A stretch of 64,000 nucleotides of DNA from Prochlorococcus marinus str. MIT 9313 (lineage in GTDB: Bacteria > Cyanobacteriota > Cyanobacteriia > PCC-6307 > Cyanobiaceae). Every line of letters begins with the position of its first letter. The first letter of the stretch is position 1. The notes under the pieces are model-generated. The model was not told where the DNA came from and did not search any database. It worked only from the letters and a program-made list of their open reading frames with translations. Position numbers and translations under genes: made by a program. The stretch lies in assembly GCF_000011485.1 (NCBI RefSeq), contig NC_005071.1, positions 685,347 through 749,346 of the forward strand, given 5' to 3'. Below, one piece after another: positions 35,256 through 42,198 of the stretch.

Positions 35256-35396
35256 ATGCACAACGCTGATTCTTCAACTTGGATTTCAGCGATCTTTGGG
35301 CCCAACTCAACCATTGCCGCGTGTGGACGATCCTCGCACCGGTACACGAGGGCTGTCCCTTTGGGTCAGCTTCGTCAAAGTCAACCCGATTATTAA
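35256..35396 (+). CDS. Possible 46-residue small ORF
   Basis: ATG at 35256 to TAA at 35394-35396 encodes MHNADSSTWISAIFGPN, a middle with one Cys, then RAVPLGQLRQSQPDY. No family is recognised. Part of it overlaps palindromic DNA (TTGGGCCCAA at 35296-35305), so the signal could be RNA structure rather than coding. The candidate promoter of the downstream RNA element begins at its 3' end. Confidence 0.25.
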   Translation: MHNADSSTWISAIFGPNSTIAACGRSSHRYTRAVPLGQLRQSQPDY

Positions 35397-35415
35397 ATAA
35401 TTTGGTTTAATAGTC

Positions 35416-35487
35416 ACCCTTGGTTCATCGGCAACTCCCATTCGCTTCTGGGAATTGCCCAAACCTTCCCCCATTCCAAGGGTTTTT
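35416..35487 (+). ncRNA. Candidate small RNA or leader attenuator before lysozyme gene
   Basis: ACCCTTGG (35416-35423) pairs perfectly with CCAAGGGT (35476-35483), followed by a TTTTT run (35483-35487). Inside, GGCAA-c-TCCC (35430-35439) pairs with GGGA-a-TTGCC (35450-35459). A TTTAAT box at 35406-35411 is correctly placed as a -10 for a start at about 35416-35418. The result is a compact RNA of about 72 nt with an unpaired C-rich strand (AAACCTTCCCCCATT). It ends 9 bases before the lysozyme start, so it is either an independent sRNA or a transcriptional attenuator. Confidence 0.5.
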
Positions 35488-35496
35488 ATTCTCTGA

Positions 35497-36273
35497 ATGC
35501 AAAGAATGATCGCTCCCGCATCGACTGTCTATCGTCTTCTATCAGCAGTCGCAGCTGGTTTTCTCCCTTTCTCAATAGCAGCTGGAGCAGCGCAAGCAAC
35601 CAATACCCATATCCCTCTCCCTCCTTCACTTCCATCTCTTGAGCTAACAGCACGTTCCCAGTCGCTAAGTAATCCAGAACAGGTTCCCTCAGCGGCATTG
35701 CCATATGTGATCACCCCGGAGCGGCGGGCCCTTCTCAACACCATTCGCTTTGCCGAAGGTACTTGGAAGAATGGGCATGACCTTGGCTATCGAGTGATGT
35801 TTGGTGGAGGTCTCATGGCCTCATTAGATCGTCATCCCAATCGAGTCATTTACTCCTCTCGATATGCAAGTGCTGCAGCAGGGGCTTATCAATTCATGCC
35901 TTTTACCTGGGACATGGTGACCCGCAGTCTTGGTTTGCGTGGTTTTGGTCCAGAAGTTCAGGATCAGGGAGCTCTCTTTCTTGTTCAACGTCGCAAGGCT
36001 TTAGGTCTTACCGATTCAGGGTTTATGACCCCTCTATTAGCAGCAAAACTTGCGCCTGAATGGGCTTCATTCCCCACTCTGAGCGGCAGGAGTTACTACG
36101 GCCAGCCTGTCAAACGCTTTTCCAGCTTGCTTGGTTTCTACAAGTTCAACTTGGCGCAGCTCAGGTCGATCAGGGATCAGCGCCGTCAAGATCTTGCTGC
36201 ACCTGGTAATGACGCAGCTAGGAGACCTGTTTGCAAACCCCCCACAATTCTTTGCAGCATTCAAAGTCGCTGA
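35497..36273 (+). CDS. Secreted lysozyme, phage lambda R-like (GH104)
   Basis: A 258-residue protein with a signal peptide (core LLSAVAAGFLPFSIAAGAAQA), a Pro/Ser-rich linker (about 35-75) and a C-terminal peptidoglycan lytic domain. The domain shows LLNTIRFAEGTWKNG with the catalytic Glu, GYRVMFGGGL, RYASAAAGAYQFMPFTWDM and WASFPTL...YYGQ. The order and motifs match the lambda endolysin (GH104, lytic transglycosylase). It would act on the periplasmic murein. Its placement after a terminator-like RNA suggests controlled expression. A phage origin for the domain is likely, but it now has a host-type secretion signal. Confidence 0.85.
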   Translation: MQRMIAPASTVYRLLSAVAAGFLPFSIAAGAAQATNTHIPLPPSLPSLELTARSQSLSNPEQVPSAALPYVITPERRALLNTIRFAEGTWKNGHDLGYRVMFGGGLMASLDRHPNRVIYSSRYASAAAGAYQFMPFTWDMVTRSLGLRGFGPEVQDQGALFLVQRRKALGLTDSGFMTPLLAAKLAPEWASFPTLSGRSYYGQPVKRFSSLLGFYKFNLAQLRSIRDQRRQDLAAPGNDAARRPVCKPPTILCSIQSR

Positions 36274-41687: not shown

Positions 41688-41875
41688 ATTCTGCTTGAAC
41701 TGCTGTGTTGGTGACGGCCTTTTTCTAGTGCTCTGATCTGACTCTCTTTCGATTTGGGGAGGCTGTCGTGAAGGTGACGTAGACCGGACTTGCTTCCGGA
41801 AACGAAGCCCCACTTTGCTTCCCCTTCTGGTTCTTCCAGGTCGAACACTGGGGCTCGCACGGCATGGCGGTTCAC
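41684..41875 (-). CDS. Small hypothetical protein coupled to DUF2103 gene
   Basis: A 63-residue hydrophilic protein with no domain. Its start overlaps the DUF2103 stop by four bases (ATGA), which favours a real, translationally coupled gene. Its stop overlaps the end of purK on the other strand by four bases. The C-terminus is His/Ser-rich (KGRHQHSSSSRI). Confidence 0.4.
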   Translation of the reverse strand: MNRHAVRAPVFDLEEPEGEAKWGFVSGSKSGLRHLHDSLPKSKESQIRALEKGRHQHSSSSRI

Positions 41876-42198
41876 CTCTTTTGAACGCCTGGACGACTGT
41901 GATTAAGTCGTTTCAATAATGACCCTTCGTCCAATTTTGTGACAACAAAAACCTCCTGAGCTGAGCTGCCAAGTCTGGCAACCAGTTTGAAACCACCCTT
42001 GATCGGCGTTGTAATTCTCAGGCGAAGTTCTGGACAATGACCTTTGACGCGTCGGATGACGGCTGGTGTAATCGTTTGAATGTTCTTCTCCTCTGCAAGG
42101 GCCTTCAACCATGGAATTAGACCCTCTACGTAGGTGCTGTGCGTGATTACAACTCGACCCATCGCAACTTTTTCGTGTAATTGATCGAAACTAGCCAA
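41872..42198 (-). CDS. DUF2103 family protein
   Basis: A 108-residue protein. The segment GRVVITHSTYVEGLIPWLKAL, followed by ITPAVIRRVKGHCPELRLRITTPIKGGFKLVARLGSSAQEVFVVT, fits DUF2103, a family of predicted metal- or nucleic-acid-binding proteins in cyanobacteria and archaea. It has no membrane segment or secretion signal. It forms a two-gene unit with the downstream 63-residue ORF. Confidence 0.75.
   Translation of the reverse strand: MASFDQLHEKVAMGRVVITHSTYVEGLIPWLKALAEEKNIQTITPAVIRRVKGHCPELRLRITTPIKGGFKLVARLGSSAQEVFVVTKLDEGSLLKRLNHSRPGVQKR

Follow-up and report, generated by a model that had tools for sequence, protein, structure and literature searches.

A conserved structured leader upstream of a lambda-R-type lysozyme gene in Prochlorococcus marinus MIT9313 and marine Synechococcus

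The lysozyme locus and its leader

The window analyzed here is a 64,000-nt part of the 2,410,873-bp genome of Prochlorococcus marinus MIT9313. It contains a chromosomal lysozyme gene of the lambda-R type, whose product matched PDB entries 1am7 and 3d3d (E about 1e-14) and a PHROG endolysin (E 1e-29); Pfam and NCBIfam searches with the same product gave no match. Of 400 family genomes, 230 have related genes. Two in-frame ATGs lie at the 5′ end of the reading frame, at 35497 and 35506. The second is the more likely start codon, because it is the one conserved in the comparison with Synechococcus leaders. Farther along the window, positions 41694–41877 match 6S RNA (Rfam RF00013, 100 bits) and coincide with the published coordinates of yfr7 (6S RNA) in MIT 9313, 727045..727219 (PMC1242208). 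The features of the lysozyme leader are as follows.

35372–35401, + strand: predicted promoter-like site, TCGTCA-18-AATAAT, 9/12 matches in a promoter scan
35406–35411, + strand: TTTAAT, possible but unproven −10 box of the original prediction
35416–35483, + strand: outer stem, arms ACCCTTGG (35416–35423) and CCAAGGGT (35476–35483), 8 perfect pairs, restricted to the genus
35430–35459, + strand: H1, the core (inner) hairpin, with 7 of 8 modeled pairs covarying (27 distinct sequences)
35440–35449, + strand: H1 loop AUUCGCUUCU (family consensus AUYCGCUUCU), with 9 of its 10 positions the same in every sequence
35461–35485, + strand: H2, a small second hairpin, AAACCTT (35461–35467) with AGGGTTT (35479–35485), p = 0.023 in MIT9313
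35483–35487, + strand: T-run, ending 9 bases before the ATG at 35497
35495–35500, + strand: GAATGC start-proximal block, conserved (GAAYGC in the family) and containing the first ATG
35497–36273, + strand: lysozyme open reading frame, start at 35497 or, more likely, 35506

The leader RNA is predicted to fold at −25.2 kcal/mol, compared with −14.5 ± 2.3 for shuffled sequences (z = −4.7), and none of 200 shuffles folded as low. The reverse strand of the element is equally structured. The stem of H1 pairs GGCAA.TCCCA (35430–35440) with TGGGA.TTGCC (35449–35459), giving 10 pairs and one 1 × 1 mismatch, and the first and last bases of its ten-base loop could form an A-U pair. About 52 nt lie within the outer stem, which in MIT9313 competes with H2 for the same bases, those of the AAGGG strand. 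The original prediction had described perfect or nearly perfect outer and inner stems, and both are there with small shifts in coordinates, as are the TTTAAT and the T-run.

Assignment of TTTAAT as the −10 box fared less well. The promoter scan found two sites where 0.5 would be expected by chance, and the better-scoring one ends in AATAAT (35396–35401) rather than in TTTAAT, for which aligned relatives have TTTAAT, TTTAT or TTGAAT. The AATAAT site belongs to a TTCGWCAAAGT...ATTAAA block that lies upstream of nearly all lysozyme orthologues, and the TTCGWCAAAGT block is conserved in leaders both with and without the hairpin. In genus g5, TTGACTGGCATATATACCTATTGC precedes this block. A short upstream ORF was also considered and rejected: the frame is open through the MIT9313 leader, but indels shift it in relatives.

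An inner hairpin with a nearly invariant loop

The leaders of the lysozyme orthologues contain H1 in 32 species, 5 from the genus of MIT9313 and 27 Synechococcus (g5 and g34). Four of the Synechococcus leaders (G184, G223, G356 and G388) were missed by the strict search and have the exact loop; they were added from orthologous leaders once the model had been built. Only one loop position, C or U, varies among the 27 distinct hairpins. The stems of Synechococcus differ, with examples such as GAGCACCUC-AUCCGCUUCU-GAUGUGCUC, GUCGAACUCC-AUCCGCUUCU-GGAUUUCGAC and AAUU-AUCCGCUUCU-AAUU. From the 5′ side, the leader consists of H1, usually a small second hairpin, the GAAYGC block and the ATG, with 42–61 nt between loop and ATG. 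The second hairpin, found in 24 of 28 leaders, is local (p < 0.04 each) and differs in sequence from leader to leader.

Because the alignments were anchored on the loop alone and left ungapped, they did not impose pairing on the flanks, and the pairing of H1 is therefore an independent observation. Seven of the eight modeled pairs had changes on both sides among 19 sequences, and the same proportion held among 27 distinct sequences, with 45 double-changed cells. Pairing was retained in 92.6% of cells; shuffles gave 71.0% and slid controls no more than 48%. None of 500 shuffles reached the observed score, a count that is inflated by the relatedness of the sequences and is not to be read as a probability. 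Covariation in relatives, the check put forward with the original prediction, was thus strong, and the inner hairpin carried it. Together, the fold and the comparative analysis confirm a genuine structured RNA element linked to the lysozyme gene.

An inverted repeat close to a promoter-like site could also be a DNA operator bound by a transcription factor. The usual operator keeps its half-sites and lets the spacer vary; here the half-sites vary and the spacer is invariant, and the element has a single fixed orientation relative to the gene. Among the 30 non-Watson-Crick cells of H1, 14 are G-U where 5 would be expected (p = 1e-4, uncorrected for relatedness), an excess that favors RNA over a DNA palindrome. 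We regard an operator as highly improbable.

H1 is absent from most orthologous lysozyme leaders of g34 (including WH7803) and from some of g5, so the gene can do without the hairpin. Synechococcus leaders with and without it alternate, a pattern that may reflect either a single origin followed by losses or repeated gains. Leaders lacking the H1 loop (L133, L134, L137, L138, L142-L145, L148 and L013) have a small variable hairpin followed by TTGATC-TCCTCCTCC-GGTCAA, in which the loop TCCTCCTCC resembles an anti-Shine-Dalgarno sequence.

That sister lineages carry other, unrelated leader hairpins, and that H1 lies near the predicted 5′ end, would suit a passive hairpin, one that shields the mRNA against degradation or leaves the start site accessible and needs no trans-acting partner. 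Such a role does not account for a 10-nt loop that stays constant while its stem varies freely, and we consider it rather doubtful. That pattern suggests instead a sequence-specific binding partner.

The outer stem, T-run and C-rich strand

The element precedes the lysozyme gene in all five species examined in the genus of MIT9313. Its 19-base core, CTCCCATTCGCTTCTGGGA, is identical in the five and occurs once per genome, and the flanks are divergent. The outer stem has 82.5% of its cells paired across these species, with three pairs changed on both sides. It dominates the folding ensemble in MIT9313, MIT 0701 and AG-412-I05; its pairing probability is about 0.9–1.0 in three species and reduced in the other two. 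Two of these species, AG-412-I05 (TTCTTG) and the ERR599070 bin (TCTTT), have an interrupted T-run, and genus g5 has none at the corresponding place. A terminator scan of the element found no canonical intrinsic terminator. The C-rich strand, CCTTCCCCC in MIT9313, reads CCTTTCC, CCCTCC or CCCTTCC in relatives, and g5 lacks it.

These observations bear on the two roles first proposed for the element. One was a free-standing sRNA of about 72 nt, starting after TTTAAT, ending at the T-run and acting in trans through its C-rich strand, which would pair with G-rich ribosome-binding sites. The compact fold is compatible with this, as is the spacing of TTTAAT and the T-run. Opposed to it are the lack of a canonical terminator, a T-run broken in two of five species, an outer stem that is weak in two of five and missing in Synechococcus, and the constant position of the element directly upstream of the same gene, 42–61 nt from the ATG. 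The pairing claim loses support because the C-run is not conserved; the lack of Shine-Dalgarno enrichment in MIT9313 (PMC6778093) also counts against it. A free sRNA now seems very unlikely.

The other role was attenuation at the T-run: the outer stem or H2, followed by the T-run, would stop transcription, and the two mutually exclusive pairings of AAGGG would act as a switch. H2 and the outer stem are predicted to compete in this way in MIT9313, and the outer stem shows some covariation within the genus. Some hairpin-less Synechococcus leaders also have the TTGATC/GGTCAA stem followed by T-rich DNA before the ATG. The T-run, however, is kept neither within the genus nor in g5, the outer stem is genus-restricted, and an attenuator gives no role to the H1 loop, the most conserved part of the leader. 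We judge attenuation unlikely.

Specificity of the element

A covariance model of the hairpin, run on 30 genomes, matched strongly once in each of 19; every one of these matches was at the lysozyme leader, and no other was better than E = 0.03. When the search covered 400 family genomes, lysozyme leaders again made up the strong matches, with one exception in G276; weaker matches at other genes were mostly in coding sequence. The exception (G276:C6:34574-34611, minus strand, E 4e-7) reads AAACAAATC-ATTCGCTTCT-GATCTGTTTG and is located at the end of a cupin-like gene, adjoining a psaB-like gene.

Rfam searches at both gathering and loose thresholds gave no match for the MIT9313 leader or for five Synechococcus counterparts, and the exact core was found in none of the viral contigs searched. 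The titles, abstracts and passages of the literature that were searched do not mention the element. H1 has the marks of a cis-acting leader: a covarying stem and a single downstream gene, on the same strand and at a narrow distance. As an RNA family or control element, it is apparently undescribed.

Candidate partners of the loop

No conserved site that might pair in cis with the H1 loop was found within the leader and early gene. Pairing of CAUUC with GAAUG in the start region is possible in MIT9313 and was rejected, since it cannot form where the loop has AUCCGC and the start-proximal block is GAACGC. The complement of the loop, AGAAGCGRAU, occurs at 7 to 23 places per genome on both strands, mostly coding among those read, and no shared intergenic site was evident in the two genomes read. 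Pairing of Yfr1 or Yfr2 with the loop was not better than with shuffled loops (best p = 0.16). Since the search yielded no partner in cis, no significant Yfr1/Yfr2 pairing and no shared intergenic complement, a protein would be a likelier partner than an sRNA.

In genome G102, CTGATAAGAAGCGGATA occurs at two intergenic sites (L296 and L297) separated by 3.6 kb. One of them precedes an ORF that resembles, by eye, a Nif11-type leader peptide.

A model for the lysozyme leader

We are highly confident, on comparative grounds, that the element is a conserved structured leader of the lysozyme gene. The reading that we prefer as a whole, and hold to be probable, is that the lysozyme mRNA has a structured 5′ UTR and that a factor binding its loop controls translation or mRNA stability. 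Transcription would begin just before H1, from a putative promoter some 100 nt upstream of the gene. H1 would then present the ten-base loop AUYCGCUUCU on a stem in which pairing is kept and sequence is free, and H2 and the GAAYGC block would lead on to the start codon. The partner that binds the loop in trans would most likely be an RNA-binding protein, an sRNA being the less likely choice, and its binding would set translation or decay of the message for a cell-wall-cutting enzyme. We infer the transcription start, the action at the RNA level, the partner and the direction of control alike.

Recognition of the H1 loop by a trans-acting factor, taken by itself, is plausible from the sequence pattern while falling somewhat short of probable. 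A more specific proposal, which we offer tentatively, is that the loop binds an RNA-binding protein or sRNA of marine picocyanobacteria, as yet undiscovered, that is dedicated to this single lysozyme message and restrains self-lysis.

Little is known about post-transcriptional control of cell-wall-cutting enzymes in picocyanobacteria, and the organisms that carry this apparently undescribed RNA family are among the most abundant phototrophs on Earth. Its near-invariant loop could be used as bait for the partner, and a regulon of one gene makes the question of lysozyme control directly testable.

Comparison with known systems

In pattern, H1 resembles translational hairpin operators such as the MS2 coat-protein operator and the iron-responsive element, which place a fixed loop on a free stem. 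Like H1, they combine a sequence-specific loop with a stem conserved in its pairing alone; we claim no homology. Their binding proteins are known, whereas the partner of H1 is putative.

H1 also resembles the orphan 5′ leader motifs of Rfam, those with no known ligand, in its link to a single gene, its covarying stem, its conserved loop and its position before a start codon. It differs from them in that no Rfam family matches the MIT9313 leader or its Synechococcus counterparts. Yfr1, Yfr2 and Yfr10, sRNAs of picocyanobacteria, are likewise small structured RNAs with a conserved unpaired motif in the same organisms, but they differ in sequence, in structure and in having independently placed genes, and Yfr1 and Yfr2 lack significant complementarity to the H1 loop. 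With intrinsic-terminator attenuators, the MIT9313 leader shares a stem and then a T-run before the gene; unlike them, it has an outer stem enclosing about 52 nt, and the stem and T-run are not kept across relatives.
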